Origin: Microlunatus antarcticus
GTDB taxonomy: Bacteria; Actinomycetota; Actinomycetes; Propionibacteriales; Propionibacteriaceae
Reading direction: 5' to 3'
Length of the DNA: 64,000 nucleotides
NCBI RefSeq assembly: GCF_014193425.1
Contig: NZ_JACHZG010000001.1
Coordinates: forward strand, 2,418,001 to 2,482,000
This document shows positions 7,726-47,876 of this stretch, one piece after another. The notes beneath the pieces are model-generated. The model saw only the letters and a list, made by a program, of their open reading frames with translations. It had not been told where the DNA came from and did not search any database. The translations under genes and the position numbers were made by a program. Each line of letters begins with the position of its first letter. Positions within the stretch are counted from its first letter, which is position 1.

Positions 7726-8306
7726 GCACGTGCTCCCTTCGTACGGGCCTGGGTAGCGGCCTGGGCGTAGGCCCGCTGCTGTCGCGCGGCCACGCTCGAG
7801 GCGGACTGCTGGGCCTGGTCGAGCCGGTCGGTGCTGCTCCCCCGCCAGACGTGGCAGATGGCGAGCGCGAGGGCGTCGGCGGCGTCGGCCGGCTTGGGCA
7901 CCTCGGTCAGCTGGAGGATGCGGGCCACCATGGCCCCGACCTGGTCCTTGCCGGCCCGGCCGGACCCGGTGATGGCCGCCTTCACCTCGCTGGGCGTGTG
8001 GAGGGCGGCCGGGATGCCGTGCCGGGCAGCGACCAGCAGGGCGATCCCCGCGGCCTGCGCCGTCCCCATGACGGTGCCCACGTTGTGCTGGGCGAAGACG
8101 CGTTCCACGGCGACGACGGACGGGCGGTAGCGCTGCACCCACTCCTCGAACGTCGCCTCGAGGGCGGCCAGCCGTACGCCGGTCTCCTCGTGCGGGGACG
8201 TCCGGAGCACGTCGACGGCCAGGACGAACGGCTTGCGCCCGGGCACGCCGTCCACCATGCCGAGACCACAGCGGGTCAGGCCGGGGTCGATGCCGAGCAC
8301 GCGCAC
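7722..8306 (-). CDS. ruvC: Crossover junction endodeoxyribonuclease RuvC
   Basis: Resolves Holliday junctions by symmetric cleavage. The 194-residue product starts [13 protein letters not shown] with catalytic Asp7, has Glu68 in [10 protein letters not shown], and the C-terminal acidic pair in [13 protein letters not shown] near 148-160; these four acids form the RNase H-like active site. GTG start at 8306, preceded by a GAGGGAGA ribosome-binding site. First gene of the ruvCAB operon. Confidence 0.97.
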
Positions 8307-8355
8307 GGGGTCTCCCTCGTCGTCGGAGCGCGTGCGGAACCGAACACGCGTTCGT

Positions 8356-8361
8356 ACGCTA
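8356..8361 (-). promoter_or_regulatory. -10 element (TAGCGT) for ruvCAB
   Basis: TAGCGT on the minus strand about 50 nt before the ruvC GTG, in the gap following yebC. The leader of roughly 40 nt contains the ruvC Shine-Dalgarno sequence. Confidence 0.4.
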
Positions 8362-8380
8362 ACCGAGGAGTCGTGGACCC

Positions 8381-8405
8381 CGGCCGCCCGACACGCGCGC
8401 GGCCG
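8381..8405 (-). terminator. Possible hairpin after yebC
   Basis: CGGCCGC and GCGGCCG arms (8381-8387 and 8399-8405) with an 11-nt loop lie 13 nt past the yebC stop. There is no T-run, which is common for actinobacterial terminators. Weak evidence. Confidence 0.35.
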
Positions 8406-8417
8406 CCCCGATCAGGC

Positions 8418-9179
8418 TCAGCCGGCGTTGACCAGGGCGTCGTTCTGGACGTCGGCGTTGGTGAAGACGTTCTGCACGTCGTCGGAGTCCTCGAGGGCGT
8501 CGACGAGGCGCTCGAGCTTCTCTAGCGTCTCCGCGTCGGCCGGCTGCGTGAACTCGGGCACGAAGGAGACCTCGGCCGAGTCGTAGTCGAGCCCGGCCTC
8601 CTGCACCGCGGTGCGCACGGCGACGGTGACCGCCGGGTCGCTGATGATCTCGAAGGCGTCGTCGAGGTCGTTGACCTCGTCGGGCCCGGCGTCCAGGGTC
8701 GCCTCGAGGACGTCGTCCTCGGTGAGGGTGCGCCCCTCCTGCTGCTTGGTCAGCAGGACGACGCCCTTGCGGCTGAACACCCGCGCGGTCGACCCGACGT
8801 CGGCCATCGTGCCGCCGTTGCGGGTGACCGCGACGCGGACGTCGGAGGCGGAACGGTTCCGGTTGTCGGTCAGGCACTCGATGAGCATCGCGATGCCGGC
8901 CGGGCCGTACGCCTCGTAGAACAGCGTCTCGTACGCGGCGCCGCCGCCCTCGGCACCGGAGCCGCGCTTGATGGCGCGCTCGATGTTGTCCTTGGGGACC
9001 GAAGTCTTGCGGGCCTTCTGGACGGCGTCGTACAGCGTGGGGTTGCCGTCGAGATCACCGCCGCCCAGCCGAGCGGCGACCTCGATGTTCTTGATGAGCT
9101 TGGCGAAGGACTTCGCGCGACGCGCGTCGACGACGGCCTTCTGATGCTTGGTGGTGGCCCACTTGGAATGACCCGACAT
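8418..9179 (-). CDS. yebC: YebC/PmpR family translation/transcription regulator
   Basis: The 253-residue product begins [22 protein letters not shown], the family hallmark, and keeps [28 protein letters not shown] near 45-72 and the [18 protein letters not shown] region. YebC proteins were named as transcription factors; recent work on the family ties some members to relief of ribosome stalling at proline stretches (family knowledge, not visible here). It lies directly upstream of ruvC, the standard actinobacterial neighbour. The start at 9179 is supported by a TACGAT -10 box 8 nt ahead of the ATG. Confidence 0.96.
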
Positions 9180-9187
9180 GGTTCTAG

Positions 9188-9193
9188 ATCGTA
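9188..9193 (-). promoter_or_regulatory. Leaderless-type -10 element (TACGAT) for yebC
   Basis: On the minus strand TACGAT is followed by 8 nt and then the yebC ATG, so transcription would begin at or next to the start codon. No Shine-Dalgarno sequence precedes the ATG. Confidence 0.55.
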
Positions 9194-9248
9194 GTCCCGC
9201 CGCACCCGCTCCCTCTCCACCCGTTCTCCTCTCGCCGGGATCCACGGG

Positions 9249-9303
9249 AAACGCTGACTCCCGACAGCTGCTGGCCGGCTCCACGGGTCGGGAGTCAGCG
9301 GTT
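9249..9303. repeat. Palindrome, copy 1 (core CGCTGACTCCCGA)
   Basis: Arms CGCTGACTCCCGA (9252-9264) and its exact complement (9288-9300) give a 13-bp stem, extended by A/T pairs, around a 23-nt loop. The stop codon of the DUF559 gene (9295-9297) lies inside the right arm, so it may serve as that gene's terminator. TCCACGGG appears both just before the left arm and just before the right arm. A near copy lies at 10282-10339. Confidence 0.75.
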
Positions 9304-10248
9304 CGTGGGCGCCCAGCGCTCCAGCAGCCGGCGGCGGCCGGCCGATCCGTAGGACGAGCGCGAGACGAGGTCGCGCCACGCCGCGAGCCGGCCGGGGTGC
9401 CACGACCGCTGCAGCGCGGCGTCGGCGGCGGCGATGATCTCGCCGCCGCGGCGGAGCACCTCCCGCGCCGTGTAACCGCAGCGCTCCCACCGGTCGTCCA
9501 CCAGCCGCCGTTCGCGGGCGAGGTCGGCGCGGTGCGTCTCGACGTCCCGGTGGTCGGCGCCGTCGTACTCGTGGATGCGCCGAGTGCCCACCAGCCAGAG
9601 GTCGGCCCGGGCGACGAACGTCCCTGCGGCCGTACGGATCTCGTGCTGCGGCTCGACCTCGACGTCGGCTGTGACGTGCAGCAGCCGCAGGACAGACTCC
9701 CACGCAGACTCGCTGCGGCCGTCGAGCAGGGGTAGGACCTCTCGCAGCATCCGGACGCCGCGTCGCCGCGCGCAGGTCGCCTCGACGAGGTCGGCCGTCG
9801 TGCAGTGGCCGAGGTGGAGCGCCGAGTCGGCCAGCACCACGAGATCGAGCACGTCGAGGTCGGCCGCGCACGTCAACAGGGTCTCGGCAGGGGTGGCCAG
9901 CCGTACGCCGTCGACCTGCTCGACCGTGCCGTTCCCGTTCAGACGGAGCACCTTCAGACCGTGCCGCTGCGGATGGCGGTCCCGCTCCGCGACCGCGGCG
10001 AACACCGGCTGCGGCAGCGCCTGCGGCAGCCACCATCCCCGTAGGGCCGCCGCGGTGAGGTGCGTGATCACGGCCGACTCCGGCAGCACCAGGCTCCAGC
10101 CCCTGAGCCGGTGGGCCAGGTCGGGCTCCACACCCGCCGCATGCACCCCTCGCGCGACCGCGGTCCACCCGGCCCGCCTGACCCTGCCCCGGACGACGTC
10201 CTCCACGTCTGGAGGATGGTCAGGAGTCACCGATCCTGCCGGTCCCAC
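9295..10248 (-). CDS. DUF559/AbiEi-like protein with PD-(D/E)XK-type C-terminus
   Basis: 317 residues of a family common in actinobacteria, often labelled AbiEi-type antitoxin or DUF559 protein. The N-terminal 90 residues resemble the AbiEi winged-helix region ([15 protein letters not shown]). The C-terminal 130 residues look like a Vsr/DUF559 endonuclease fold: [20 protein letters not shown] near 220-240 carries the D...E-x-D acid pattern, followed by the basic [13 protein letters not shown] region. No partner toxin gene lies next to it. The gene is bracketed by two related palindromes, suggesting a separate cassette between yebC and the his-linked genes. Start is uncertain: GTG at 10248 is used, and another GTG lies 6 codons later. 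DNA cleavage is untested inference. Confidence 0.7.
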
Positions 10249-10281
10249 CCCGCGAACCTGTGGACAACGTGCGAGCGCCGA

Positions 10282-10339
10282 GAAACCGCTGACTCCGGAC
10301 GCCCGAACCTCGATCTGCCGTGTCGGGAGTCAGCGTTTC
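10282..10339. repeat. Palindrome, copy 2 (core CGCTGACTCC)
   Basis: Arms 10282-10299 and 10324-10339 pair as GAAAC(C)GCTGACTCC with one bulged C and a short mismatch. The core matches the palindrome at 9249-9303. It lies 53 nt downstream of the end of the acyl-reductase/HAD gene and upstream of the DUF559 gene, so it could terminate the former. Confidence 0.7.
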
Positions 10340-10391
10340 CTGACGAGGGGGGGAGGGGGCGAAAGGGGCGGGGCCGGTGGGGCAGCCGGGG

Positions 10392-12755
10392 TCAGGCGGG
10401 CAGGCGCCAGCGCGGGGTGGGGGACTTCGTCTTCCACTCCACGATCGACCAGTTCTTGCGCTGCGCCGCCCGCATCAGGGAGATGTCGGGGCTGACCGCG
10501 ACGGGGTTGCCGACCGTGGAGAGCATCGGCAGGTCGGAGTGGCTGTCGGCGTAGGCGAAGCTCCGCGTCAGGTCGACCCCGCGCAGCGCGGCGTAGTGCT
10601 GCAGCCAGGCGGCGCGCGACTCCCCCACCAGCGGCGAGGTGGCCAGGTAGCCGGTGGCCTTCCCGTCGGCGTCGGAGCCCAGCTCGGCGGCCAGGATGAT
10701 GTCGAACAGGCCGCGCAGCGGTCGGGTCAGGACCGACACCGCGCCGGTGATCAGGATCGTCGTGTGCCCCGCCGCGCGGTGCTCCTCGATCCGCCGGATC
10801 GCGTCCGGGGAGACGCGGTCCAGGATGAAGTCGTTCATCGTCGTGTCGACACGGTGCTCGAGCTCGGCCAGGTCCAGCCCGCGGTAGCGGCGGTAGACCG
10901 CGCGGAGGAAGCTGCCGCGGTCGCGCTGCTCGGTCAGCAGGTAGCTCGGCAGCCGGCCGAGGACCCCGCCCAGCTCGACAGCGCGGTCGAGCGGGGACAG
11001 CTCGGGCAGACGCGCCCACAGGTACTGCTCGATGACGTTGGTCGACATGATCGTGCCGTCGAGGTCGAAGACGGCGACCGCCGAGGCGCCGGCGGTGTTC
11101 GTGGAGAGGTCCTTGAACGTGGTCGGCCGGTTCGCCCGCTTCTTGCGCAGCGCGTCCATCCGGCGCACGGAGGCCGTGATCGCCGGGCAGTGGACGTCCT
11201 CGAGGTAGGTCGTCCAGTCGTAGCCCGCCGTGTCGAAGGCGAACGTGGCGACGTCGGCCGGGTCGAGCGACCGGGTCAGCGCCAGCGTGTTGTCGTCGAC
11301 GAAGTGGAGCTCCGACTGCGCGTACTCGTTGTAGAGCGTGTGGTAGCGCCGCCAGAAGTCGAGCCGCCCGCGCATGAGGTCGAGGTCGCGCGCCAGCTTG
11401 CGCGTCTGGTGCGAGCGCGGGGCCCGCGAGATCACGCGCTCGGCCAGGTCGTGCGCCCGCTCGGAGGTCGACAGCAGCCGCTCGACCGAGACCGCGCCGG
11501 GGAACTTCCACTCCGGCAGCGGGGCGCCCGGCTTGGACACGTTCTCCAGCGGATGGGCGGTGAAGTACGAGCGGATGTGGCCGTAGATGTCGTGGAACGT
11601 CAGCGGGTTCCGCGCGCCGGAGCTGACGTGGTAGTACTCGGGCTCCCCCGGCGTGGGGTCCGTCGCGCAGACCGCGAGGATCGCGTTCACGACGTAGTCG
11701 CACGGCACGATGTCGATGACCGCGTCGGCCGAGGCCGGGAACTCGGGCAGCTCGCCGCGCCCGTACGCCAGGATCAGCGGCTCGGCCATCTTGAAGCCCT
11801 CGATCCAGCCCGGGTAGGGGTGGAGCCAGCTGGACTCGACGATGGCCGGGCGGACGATGGAGATCTCGATGTCGGCGCCGAGGTCGGTGACGACGCGCTC
11901 CCCGAGCGCCTTGGTGAACGTGTAGACGTCGGTCCACCCGAGCGAGCGGGCCCGTTCGGTCCCGGCCGCCACGAGCTCGGCGGTCACCCACTCCTGGCGG
12001 CGCCGTTCGGTGTCGGCGGCGGTGGTGAGGTAGCCCGCCTGGCGGTGCACCCGCTCGGCCTGGTGGCGTAGCTCGGTCAGCCGCTCGGGCATCCGCGAGG
12101 CGGCCTCGACCTGCTCTCGCATGGCCAGGCCGGCGCGCGTCTCGGCCTCGTAGTCGATGCCGTGCACGTGCCCGGCCTCGGGGATCGCGCCCCGGCGTCG
12201 GCCGGCGGTGTACGCGGTGGAGATGTGGACGTAGTGCGGGACCTTCGTGCGCTCGCCGTCGGGTCCGGTGACCGCCTCGAGCATCCGCTCCATCAGCACC
12301 CGGGTGCCGACGACGTTGGTGGTGAAGGCCTGGTCGATGGGCGGGTCGAACGAGACGTCGCCGGCGCAGTGCACGACGACGTCTAGGTCGGCGGGCAGCG
12401 CGGGCACGTTCGGGAGGTCGCCCTCGATGACCTCGATGCGGGCGAGCAGGCCGTCGAGCCCGCCGTGCTGCTCGGCCAGGTCGGCGAAGATCTTCTTCTT
12501 CAGCAGGTTCCGGACGCGGGCGGTCGCTCCCGCCGAGCCCTTGCGACGCACGAGCACCGACGGCCGGGTGTCCGGCAGGTCGGTCAGCATCTTCCACAGC
12601 AGCTGCTCGCCGATGAAGCCGGTCACCCCGGTCATGACGATCTTCTTGCCGCCCAGCAGGTCGCGAAGCCGGCCGTCGAGCAGCGGACCGTGGACCGGCT
12701 CCCGGAGCTCGCTCAGCGCCGGACCGCGGTGGAACGTGTCGGCGGGGACGCTCAC
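10392..12755 (-). CDS. Fatty acyl-CoA/thioester reductase-like SDR fused to HAD-IB phosphatase
   Basis: 787-residue two-domain protein. Residues about 35-510 are an extended SDR of the male-sterility/NAD-binding-4 type: TGVTGFIG cofactor loop at 42-49, HCAGDVSFD near 129-137, and the Y278-x3-K282 pair ([11 protein letters not shown]). Residues about 555-787 are an HAD-IB (SerB-like) hydrolase with DLDGT at 564-568, an ITGAV motif II, and [10 protein letters not shown] motif III. The first half should reduce an acyl thioester; the second should remove a phosphate or relate to an attached acyltransferase step; the substrates are unknown. GTG start at 12755 overlaps the hisA stop by 4 nt, so it is co-translated with a histidine gene, though no His role is evident. 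Confidence 0.8.
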
Positions 12756-13558
12756 GCGCGGACCTCCGGGGCCGTGTCCTGGCGCGGCCGGTCGGACGAC
12801 CACCGGGTCACCGCCAGCGCCTCGGGCAGGGTGAAGCTGCCGACGTAGAGCGCGGTCCCGATGATCGCGCCCTCCACGCCGGAGCCGACGAGACCCGACA
12901 GCGCGGCGACGTCGTCGAGGCTGCTGATGCCGCCGCTGGCCACCACCGGCGCGTCCGTGCGCGCGCACACGTGGGCGAGCAGGTCGAGGTTGGGCCCGGA
13001 GAGCATGCCGTCGCTGGCCACGTCGGTGACCACGAAGCGCGCGCAGCCGGCGGCGTCGAGCCGCGCGAGCGTCTCGTCCAGCTCGCCGCCCTCGCGCGTC
13101 CACCCGCGGGCCGCGAGACGGGTGCCGCGCACGTCGAGGCCGATGGCGATCTGCTCACCGTGGGCGCCGATGATCCGCTCGCACCACTCCGGCGACTCGA
13201 GAGCCGCTGTGCCGATGTTCACCCGGGCGCAGCCGGTGCCGAGCGCGCGTTCCAGGCTGGCGTCGTCGCGGATCCCGCCCGACAGCTCGACCTGCACGCC
13301 GGCCGCCTTCACCGCGGCCACGATCGGTGCGAGGACGGCGGCGTTGCTCCCCCGCCCGAAGGCGGCGTCGAGGTCGACCAGGTGGATCCACTCCGCGCCC
13401 TCGTCGACCCACCGCTGGGCGGCGGCCATCGGGTCGCCGAACACCTTCTCGGACCCGGCGACACCCTGCACGAGCTGGACGGCCTGGCCGCCCGCCACGT
13501 CGACGGCGGGCAGCAGGACCAGGCGGTCGGAACCGGCACGATCGGCACGCGGGAGCAC
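12752..13558 (-). CDS. hisA: HisA/PriA ProFAR isomerase (probably also PRA isomerase)
   Basis: (Beta/alpha)8-barrel sugar isomerase. The 268-residue product has [18 protein letters not shown] near 15-32, [21 protein letters not shown] and [12 protein letters not shown] phosphate-binding turns, and an Asp in [12 protein letters not shown]. In actinobacteria this enzyme (PriA) serves both histidine and tryptophan synthesis; no trpF is present in the trp cluster of this window, which fits. The GTG at 13558 is settled by a TAGGGT -10 element 6 nt in front of it, so hisA has its own leaderless promoter and need not depend on the glycosidase gene upstream. C-terminus overlaps the next gene by 4 nt. 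Confidence 0.95.
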
Positions 13559-45675: not shown

Positions 45676-45721
45676 CGGGTATCGCGTGGCACCGGTCGCG
45701 CACGAACGACGAGGAGATGTC

Positions 45722-46300
45722 ATGTCCGTGCTGCCCGAGGTGCTGGCCGCCAACGAGACGTACGCCGCCGGGTTCGGCGACCTAGGCTCGCTCGCCCTGC
45801 CGCCGGCCCGCCACTTCGCCATCCTCACCTGCATGGACGCCCGGCTCGACCCCGCGAAGTACGCCGGGCTCAGCGAGGGCGACGCCCACGTCATCCGGAA
45901 CGCGGGCGGCCGGGCCAGCGACGACGCCATCCGGTCGCTCGTCATCAGCTACAAGCTGCTCGGCACCGCCGAGTTCTTCGTGGTGCATCACACCGAGTGC
46001 GGCATGGAGTTCTTCACCGACGACGTGATGCGCGGCCTGCTCGCGTCCAGCCTCGAGACGGCCGCGCTGGGCGAGGACGGCTTCCACGACGTCGGCACCG
46101 GCCCCGGCTCGACCGAGGGCGCGTACGTCGACTGGCTCACCATCGCCGACGCCGACCAGGCGGTCGTCGACGACGTCACCCGCATCCGGAACCACCCGCT
46201 CGTCCCCGCGGGCATCCCGGTCTACGGCTACGTCTACGACGTGAAGTCCGGCCGCCTGGTCGAGGTCGAGGCTGCCACCTCCATCGGCGCTGCCCAGTAG
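45722..46300 (+). CDS. Beta-carbonic anhydrase
   Basis: 192 residues; hydrates CO2 to bicarbonate. Zinc and active-site residues are present: C37-x-D39-x-R41 (CMDAR) and H90-x2-C93 (HTEC). The short length and the [16 protein letters not shown] motif place it with the small Rv1284-like beta enzymes. ATG at 45722 has GAGGAG 5 nt upstream; a GTG at 45686 is an alternative 12 codons earlier. A palindrome overlaps the likely promoter. Confidence 0.92.
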
Positions 46301-46317: not shown

Positions 46318-46380
46318 CCGCGAGCGGTAGGTTGCCGCGCCGAATCGTGAGGATCTGGCGCGGCAACCTACCGCTCGCGG
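46318..46380. terminator. Perfect 24-bp inverted repeat, bidirectional terminator
   Basis: Arms 46318-46341 and 46357-46380 are exact complements over 24 bases with a 15-nt loop. It lies between the converging carbonic anhydrase and gltD genes, 17 nt and 29 nt from their stops. Unusually long and perfect compared with other hairpins in the window. Confidence 0.8.
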
Positions 46381-46409: not shown

Positions 46410-47876
46410 TCAGACCATCATCTGGCGGACCTCGGGGCCGATCGGCCGCGGGAGGGCGGACGTGCCCGAGAGGAACTTGTCCACGCCGTTGGCGCAGGCG
46501 CGGCCCTCGGCGATCGCCCAGACGATGAGCGACTGGCCGCGGCCCGCGTCGCCGCAGGCGAAGACGCCCTCGACGTCCGTGGCGTAGTCACCGTTGCGGG
46601 CGATGTTCCCGCGCGGGTCGACGCCGACGCCGAGCTGCTCGACGAGCTGCTTCTTCTCCGGGCCGGTGAAGCCCATGGCCAGCAGCACGAGCTCGGCCGG
46701 GATCTCCTTCTCGGTGCCCTCGATCGCCGTGAGCTTGCCGCCCTGGAACACGACCTCGGACAGGACGAGCGTCTTCACGTTCCCCTGCTCGTCGCCGCGG
46801 AACTCCGAGGTGGAGACCGAGTAGACGCGCTCGCCCGACTCCTCGTGCGCCGAGCTGACCCGGTAGGTCATCGGGTAGGTCGGCCACGGCTGGTTCTCGG
46901 GCCGGTCGGTCGGCGGGGTCGGCATGATCTCCAGCTGCGTGACCGAGGCCGCGCCCTGCCGGATGGCCGTACCGAGGCAGTCAGCACCGGTGTCGCCGCC
47001 GCCGATGATCACGACGTGCTTGCCCTGCGCGCTGATCTGGTTCTCCGGCGCGTTGCCGAGCGCGGCCCGGTTGCCCTGCGGCAGGTACTCCATCGCCTGG
47101 TGGATGCCGCCGAGCTCGCGGCCCGGCACCGGGAGGTCGCGCCCGACGGTCGAGCCGATGGCGACCACGACCGCGTCGTAGCGCTCCTTGAGCTGGGACC
47201 AGGTCACCGACCCGCCGACGTCGACGCCGCAGCGGAAGTTCGTGCCCTCGTCGCGCATCTGCCGGATCCGGCGGTCGAGGACCTTCTTCTCCATCTTGAA
47301 CTCGGGGATCCCGTAGCGCATCAGACCGCCCGGGGCGTCGGCCCGCTCGTACACCGCGACGGTGTGACCCGTCCGGGTCAGCTGCTGCGCGGCGGCGAGG
47401 CCCGACGGACCCGACCCGACGACGGCCACGGTCTTGCCCGTCAGCCAGTCCGCCGGCTGCGGGGCGACGCGGCGCTCGTCCCACGCCTTGTCGATGATCG
47501 TCACCTCGACGTTCTTGATCGTCACCGCGTCGCGGTTGATGCCGACGACGCAGGCCGTCTCGCACGGCGCCGGGCACAGCCGACCCGTGAACTCGGGGAA
47601 GTTGTTCGTGGCGTGCAGCCGCTCCAGCGCCTCGTCCCAGTCACGACGCCAGACGAGGTCGTTCCACTCGGGGATGAGGTTGCCCAGCGGGCAGCCGGTG
47701 TGGCAGAAGGGGATGCCGCAGTCCATGCAGCGCCCGGCCTGCTCCGAGATGATCGGCAGCAGCGCCCGCCCCGGCGAGCCCGGGTAGACCTCGTTCCAGT
47801 CGTGCACGCGCTCCGCGACCGGCCGCCGCTCGGCGACCTTCCTTGGCGTCGTGATGAACCCACGCGGGTCAGCCAT
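46410..47876 (-). CDS. gltD: Glutamate synthase small subunit GltD
   Basis: 488 residues; passes electrons from NADPH through FAD and Fe-S clusters to GltB. N-terminal cysteine clusters CMDCGIPFC and CHTGCPLGN near 49-64 and [10 protein letters not shown] near 99-108, FAD site [15 protein letters not shown] near 150-164, NADPH site [15 protein letters not shown] near 290-304, and a final [17 protein letters not shown]. Follows gltB by 222 nt that contain a long inverted repeat. Confidence 0.97.

Follow-up and report, generated by a model that had tools for sequence, protein, structure and literature searches.

REP palindromes are common small repeats in bacterial genomes. In the REPtrons, as described in the available part of PMC8266576, the palindromes are found genome-wide and the RAYT gene is mostly present in a single copy; by criteria that include presence on plasmids, RAYT genes resemble housekeeping genes more than transposase genes. 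A second point of reference is provided by the AbiE type IV toxin-antitoxin systems. According to the accessible portion of PMC7319586, the sites bound by AbiEi antitoxins in their promoters consist of a pair of inverted repeats, each of 23 bp, with a spacing of 3 or 13 bp; by addition these figures give a span of 49 or 59 bp. The third is the group of Vsr-like DUF559/REase_MTES_1575 endonucleases, MTES_1575_REase being described with a Vsr REase fold (PMC3710099, available in part).

The locus described here shares with REP and TnpA-REP/RAYT systems (REPtrons, and also TIRtrons in the accessible text of PMC3733652) short, dispersed intergenic palindromes, a single-copy gene bracketed by cognate palindromes, here with no plasmid or phage match, and lineage-specific families of very uneven copy number. 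It differs from them in its enzyme, a putative Vsr-fold DUF559-like nuclease with an AbiEi-type region and not an HUH Y1 transposase, and in its palindromes, which are double half-sites of a fixed 59-nt length lacking a GTAG or CGTC edge tag. A putative AbiEi-like region is common to this gene and to AbiE systems such as S. agalactiae AbiEi and M. tuberculosis Rv2827c, a family whose inverted repeats span such lengths; unlike AbiE, the gene is lone, with no AbiEii toxin adjoining, it has a predicted C-terminal DUF559-like nuclease region, and its repeats lie on both sides of it and are also dispersed. With the Vsr-like endonucleases it has in common the C-terminal nuclease-like region and a conserved acidic/His motif, and it is set apart from them by the palindromic repeats, for which the literature searched offered no such example. 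In the same literature (without preprints and most subscription journals, and with several papers available in part), no account was found in which dispersed palindromes bracket an AbiEi-like or DUF559 gene.

The window, that is the whole stretch of 64,000 nucleotides of Microlunatus antarcticus DNA that was analysed, carries the gene and its palindromes in the following arrangement.

8421–9179, minus strand: yebC (TACO1/YebC), the downstream neighbour (PF01709, 1.7e-49; PF20772, 4.5e-30)
9247–9305: palindrome 1, 59 nt, with arms 9247–9265 and 9287–9305 around a variable 21-nt middle (covariance-model match, 63.3 bits)
9295–10248, minus strand: lone AbiEi/DUF559-like gene, a mechanical ORF of 317 aa with a GTG start
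10282–10340: palindrome 2, 59 nt (covariance-model match, 59.7 bits)
10392–13103, minus strand: fusion ORF of a fatty-acyl-reductase-like part (NAD_binding_4) and a HAD part, the upstream neighbour (Pfam scan on 10392–12935)

Read along the minus strand, the order is reductase-HAD fusion, palindrome 2, AbiEi/DUF559-like gene, palindrome 1 and yebC. An earlier note on this DNA had described two related palindromes flanking the gene, one of them perfect over 13 bp and one containing the stop codon, and all of this was confirmed. Both palindromes are in place with a common core; the perfect arm of palindrome 1 measures about 13–14 bp (read as 14 bp, CGCTGACTCCCGAC), palindrome 2 has the same core with one pair mismatched, and the TGA stop of the DUF559-like ORF at 9295–9297 lies inside the 3′ arm of palindrome 1. 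The repeat extends beyond that description, having a fixed length of 59 nt and edges at about 61. Pairing was found between arms 9248–9265 and 9287–9304 of palindrome 1 (18 nt, 94% complementary) and between arms 10281–10300 and 10322–10341 of palindrome 2 (20 nt, 85% complementary). The gap between palindrome 2 and the GTG start of the DUF559-like ORF measures 33 nt, and that between palindrome 2 and the reductase ORF end 51 nt.

The name AbiEi/DUF559 given earlier to the gene is a reasonable one, but for the window protein itself the assignment is weak, as no Pfam match at E≤0.1 and no NCBIfam match was obtained. The PADLOC AbiEi profile matched it with E=1e-5, over positions 71–181 only of a profile of 184, and PADLOC AbiEi profiles also match members of this gene family. 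Among 30 aligned homologues, 16 matched DUF559 (PF04480) and 12 REase_MTES_1575 at E≤0.1, and the family profile matches PDB entry 3hrl, an 'Endonuclease-Like Protein', with E=2.5e-5. In the 30-sequence alignment S181, E184, R188 and D216 are invariant, and E227, G230 and H233 are conserved at 90% or more. Judged from this conserved motif (S181...H233), the C-terminal region of the window protein is a putative nuclease-like region. By reading of the alignment, many relatives carry an apparent AbiEi-type N-terminal winged helix; it is mostly missing in the window protein and its nearest relatives, in which the last part alone remains. Five longer relatives were scanned, and an AbiEi_4 match, below the cut-off, was obtained for one of them (L093). 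A one-sequence structure model of the window protein had a mean pLDDT of 39, too low for the model to be used. No AbiEii (nucleotidyltransferase) toxin partner was found beside the gene, the neighbours being yebC and the reductase-HAD fusion.

Ten matches to the DUF559-like gene, the window gene included, are present in the M. antarcticus genome (G000); a DUF559-like paralog is located at G000:C1:2484610–2485398, 2.6 kb past the window end. When inverted repeats were sought around 22 Microlunatus loci, they were found on both sides at 11, on one side at 5 and on neither side at 6, and their sequences differ from gene to gene. A flank comparison was carried out on 126 loci from genus, family and class (71 from homologue searches and 55 chosen by place among the matches listed, mostly without internal stops), in which 450 nt upstream and 450 nt downstream of each gene were locally aligned. 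Short flanks made 5 loci untestable in the percentile test and 7 in the stricter test described below. The median score of own flank pairs was 25, compared with 11.5 for mismatched loci and 12 for a shifted control, in which the same upstream flank was aligned with a region farther downstream. Own flanks scored above the 99th percentile of mismatched pairs at 95 of 121 loci, and the shifted control did so at 1 of 118. In the stricter test the own flank pair had to outscore 120 mismatched pairs; 81 of 119 loci passed, 66 of them with a margin of at least 4 points, and 38 failed, with 0 of 98 random mismatched pairs passing. Clustered at 50% protein identity, the loci form 48 clusters; those that passed fall in 37 of these, taking in all members of 29, and are distributed over the own genome (7/10), other Microlunatus (16/26), other genera of the family (11/17) and the rest of the class (47/66).

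Around yebC, taken as a control gene at 19 loci in 19 genomes, the top flank score was 14.5. An annotation-blind scan of 170 genes in 400 kb of the own genome gave 7 above 16.5. The best was a DUF559-like paralog (the L030 gene, 43.5) and the next an aminoglycoside-kinase-like gene with a 45-nt direct repeat (27.5), the rest reaching at most 18. This gene, aminoglycoside/hydroxyurea-kinase-like (PF04655) and located at L172:11278–12147 (G000:C1), carries the 45-nt direct repeat in both flanks, with 38 of 45 positions identical. Among the 91 loci with a shared repeat, the palindrome arm score was 12 or more at 65, the shuffle medians reaching it at 0 of 91. Across the class, genes of the AbiEi/DUF559-like family are frequently flanked on both sides by palindromes of their own.

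The build of the window-type palindrome was examined from its copies. When up to three mismatches were allowed, the pattern CGCTGACTCC-N29-GGAGTCAGCG was present at 16 sites of the own genome (10 with none, 3 with one, 3 with two and 0 with three), the reversed-pattern control giving 0. With up to two mismatches it was found, among 20 Microlunatus genomes, 16 times in G000, 11 times in M. flavus (G004) and once, with two mismatches, in G016, and in none of the other 17. In a named genome collection, from which the window's own records may be left out, the exact pattern was present in M. flavus only, in 8 stretches; a search of viral contigs with the exact pattern gave no match. Alignment of 15 rows from G000, the weak place at 381237 (L023) being left out, and 11 from G004 defined an element of 59 nt with sharp edges, in which inward-facing half-sites of about 19–21 nt surround a variable 21-nt middle. 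The half-sites are 88% identical between copies in G000 and 96% in G004, and the middle 31% and 41%, respectively. The edges read A-N-[GA]-A-A-[AC]-CGCTGA in G000 and CGAA[CA]CGCTGA in G004; at neither is a GTAG or CGTC tag present at the palindrome foot.

A covariance-model search of the 20 Microlunatus genomes, in which 150 candidates per genome were scored so that counts may be low, placed at least 17 copies in G000, 34 in G004, 4 in G010, 3 in G001, 2 in G006 and 1, weak, in G005; in the other 14 genomes no place was found among the candidates scored. Many lower-scoring G004 copies have a second half-site variant, e.g. CGCTGAGGGACGAC, with the length still 59 nt, and one of the 34 G004 places, L242, is another palindrome type with AAGTGGTCGC arms, as around L065. 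Covariation of an inner stem was considered and rejected by count, positions 20–28 pairing in 33% (G000) and 43% (G004); in fixed register, the bases of this middle part pair no more often than expected by chance, the pooled z for each pair ranging from −0.4 to 1.9. Over the whole structure, 76.9% of cells were paired against 74.1% in shuffles (3/500 as high) and 57 cells were changed on both sides against 44 (4/500 as high), the excess coming mainly from pairs 1, 2, 5, 18 and 22. A search for an Rfam identity returned three below-threshold microRNA models alone, and these were taken as chance. Paired palindromes of the window type occur at G000:C1:3008100–3008309 and G000:C1:1800098–1800360, with starts about 150 and 205 bp apart, and resemble REP clusters.

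A different 59-nt palindrome type, GCGAGCGGTAGGTTGC...GCAACCTACCGCTCGC, lies within the window at 46320–46378, between the ends of mechanical ORFs 45686–46300 (plus) and 46410–47876 (minus), and a second copy is present in the same genome at L179:10625–10683. An assignment of these two to the L032 paralog was dropped, their scores of 11.5 and 12.0 being background, and no cognate DUF559-like gene was identified among the ten paralogs for the palindrome at 46320–46378.

The earlier note had named two findings as speaking together against its suggestions, wide occurrence of the hairpins at gene ends and conservation of the gene in place in all relatives. The genome-wide palindrome search revealed that copies are indeed widespread and lie mostly near gene ends. 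With ORFs called from codon-position G+C, 45 of the 47 palindrome sites examined fell between genes (24 convergent, 17 tandem and 4 divergent). For G000 this count took in 16 of 17 places, with the weak 381237 (L023) included and 1800303 left out; for G004 it took in 31 of 34, without the two that bracket the gene and without L242, the other palindrome type. As background, 3000 positions were drawn at random from 400 kb of the M. antarcticus genome, and 676 of them were intergenic, with 177 convergent, 380 tandem and 119 divergent. For the convergent palindrome sites, the distance between the 49-nt core and the nearer stop codon was 13–56 nt in 19 of 24.

Such a location is what would be expected if the palindromes were ordinary bidirectional terminators, gene-end hairpins whose sequence is kept alike by gene conversion. 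Folding agrees with this in part: palindrome 1 folded better than all 200 shuffles (z −4.6), and palindrome 2 gave a less clear result (z −1.9, with 10 of 200 shuffles equally good). Terminators of this kind, however, could work without a conserved 19-nt sequence and without a length of exactly 59 nt, they leave the matched, gene-specific bracketing pairs across the class unexplained, and the palindromes were not among the scored candidates in 14 of 20 genomes of the genus. A terminator scan of 8300–11000 found 0 terminator-like sites, but as it allows loops of 3–8 nt only, termination by these long-looped palindromes is still compatible with the result. As a full account, terminators appear improbable; in a secondary role, termination at the ends of genes would be compatible, and it may have been added later for the host. 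Of the earlier suggestion of a terminator-type repeat family used in this genome, the repeat family was borne out, its copies lying mostly near gene ends, and the terminator part found no counterpart in the short-loop scan.

The match between gene and palindrome type was followed in two ways. Palindromes were common to 58% of 43 locus pairs with protein identity of at least 60%, a value inflated by those high-identity pairs that represent the same locus in related species, with flanks alike by descent. Sharing was 13% of 54 pairs at 50–60% identity, 2.5% of 445 at 40–50%, and 0.6–1.2% below. In addition, 11 palindromes of the own genome, hand-picked from 464 kb, were compared with the flanks of the ten paralogs, a comparison in which 99% of random 60-mers score 18 or less. 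Each of four matched the flanks of one paralog and of no other: L187:6635 and L189:2939 matched the window gene with 25 and 25.5 (next best 12.5 and 10), L190:15355 the L025 gene with 24 (next best 10), and L176:8243 the L033 gene with 40.5 (next best 11). The remaining seven matched none of the ten (best 11.0–14.5). The L033 paralog (G000:C1:489015–492392) is flanked by GGCACACCCTGC repeat arrays and not by single palindromes, and an array like it is present elsewhere in the genome at L176:8243–8308. The places listed for the arm of the L032 paralog comprised no more than the two pairs around the gene and a single dispersed pair of equal spacing, the background of this search being noisy (52+52 matches vs 12+19 in the control).

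Outside Microlunatus, the arm TTGATCTTGGAGTTGTT was followed in genus g68 of family f21. It occurs 50+52 times in G343, 63+63 in G295 and 57+61 in G226; G264 has 4 arms, all around its DUF559-like gene. In G275, G325, G367 and G385 it was found 0 to 10 times (0 in G325), controls gave 0, and there was none in G000 or G004. The arm brackets a DUF559-like gene in G343, G295, G264 and G226; G226 and G295 each contain another DUF559-like match, which lacks this bracketing. In G295 and G264 the gene bracketed by the arm is intact, the stops listed for it being natural gene ends.

Autoregulation of the AbiEi type would account for several of these features. The upstream palindrome would then be an operator for self-repression, the downstream and dispersed copies regulon sites or remnants, and nothing would move. 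The promoters of AbiEi and Rv2827c themselves contain the paired inverted repeats of 23 bp to which these proteins bind (PMC7319586, accessible portion); palindrome 2 is 33 nt ahead of the GTG start, and conserved half-sites at a fixed spacing around a variable middle are as for a double-stranded binding site. Left unexplained are a matching copy beyond the other end of the gene, present at 81 of 119 loci, the dispersed copies with their preference for convergent gaps (24 of 45 intergenic sites, with 4 divergent, when random positions gave 177 and 119 of 676), and arm counts that run from 0 to 126 within one genus. As the whole explanation we regard autoregulation as unlikely; it accounts for the upstream copy and may well contribute.

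Conservation of the locus was compared within the genus. yebC was found in 19 of 20 Microlunatus genomes, and the reductase (FAR) adjoins it in five within the fetched flanks, two records being short upstream. The DUF559-like gene with its palindromes lies between FAR and yebC in G000, G004 and G010 and is absent from this place in G001 and G006, whose homologues lie elsewhere. The gene is therefore not conserved in place in all relatives, the other of the two findings named in the earlier note, and its presence in three of five genomes indicates that the unit was gained or lost on an evolutionary scale. In the empty FAR-yebC gaps of G001 and G006 no palindrome match was obtained in the covariance-model search. 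Three orthologous dispersed sites were also compared: at two of them both species have the palindrome, and at the third it is confined to G004 and has no clean edges; none showed a solo palindrome cleanly inserted. In a comparison of L039 with L213, G010 is ~150 nt longer than G004 directly beside an orthologous palindrome.

This variable presence, together with the match of PADLOC AbiEi profiles, is what suggests an exchangeable cassette, in which the gene would be swapped as cargo, e.g. for defence, by recombination between the flanking palindromes. Most window-type palindromes in the genus Microlunatus, however, lie without the gene; neither empty gap gave a palindrome match in the model search, no partner toxin gene is found inside the bracketed unit, and searches of plasmid and phage collections and of viral contigs gave no match, so that the reading as mobile cargo is unsupported. 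We consider such a cassette very improbable. Of the small mobile or exchangeable defence cassette proposed earlier, gain or loss at the locus bore out a part, and the mobile defence part found no support.

Could the palindromes be REP elements moved by a Y1 (RAYT/IS200) transposase, with the DUF559-like gene as a bystander? Their size and intergenic location are REP-like (PMC8266576 and PMC3733652, each available in part). But a profile search for Y1_Tnp (PF01797), in which positive controls matched in 5 of 14 genomes, found none in 10 of 10 genomes, including three g68 genomes with 102–126 arms. This reading is thereby left with hardly any likelihood. The architecture of a REPtron combined with the lack of a Y1 transposase match in ten genomes favours a REP-like partnership with a putative Vsr-fold nuclease.

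The two palindromes and the gene that they enclose probably belong together as a unit, in which palindromes are partnered, much as in a REPtron, with the gene of a putative Vsr-fold (DUF559) nuclease. Compared with the RAYT transposase, this enzyme would be unrelated, a PD-(D/E)XK/Vsr-fold nuclease carrying an AbiEi-type region. This reading draws on the association of gene and palindromes, the structure of the family with its fixed length and conserved half-sites, the distribution of the copies and the match between gene and palindrome type. The protein would recognise and spread the palindromes; recognition is plausible, given the binding of AbiEi to paired inverted repeats. In the scheme proposed, many AbiEi/DUF559-like nuclease genes would own a palindrome with copies on both sides. 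The protein would bind its own palindrome as a pair of inverted half-sites and cut at or near it, and copies may then be spread by cut-and-repair copying. Copies spread in this way would settle in other intergenic places, often behind stop codons, and persist there; a host role, e.g. in transcription termination, could possibly be gained later.

More tentatively, and with about as much to be said for the idea as against it, these systems could constitute an independent second kind of REP. Actinobacterial Vsr-fold DUF559 nucleases with AbiEi-type DNA-binding regions would have private palindrome families, which they would copy to places between genes through cutting and repair; paralogs would co-diverge with their palindromes, and several systems would be present per genome. 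Dozens of gene-palindrome pairs are on hand for direct tests of recognition. If the proposal is true, dispersed palindromes can arise by a second chemistry, from another enzyme family, and a role would be assigned to the large group of lone AbiEi/DUF559-like genes that are listed as AbiEi in defence libraries.
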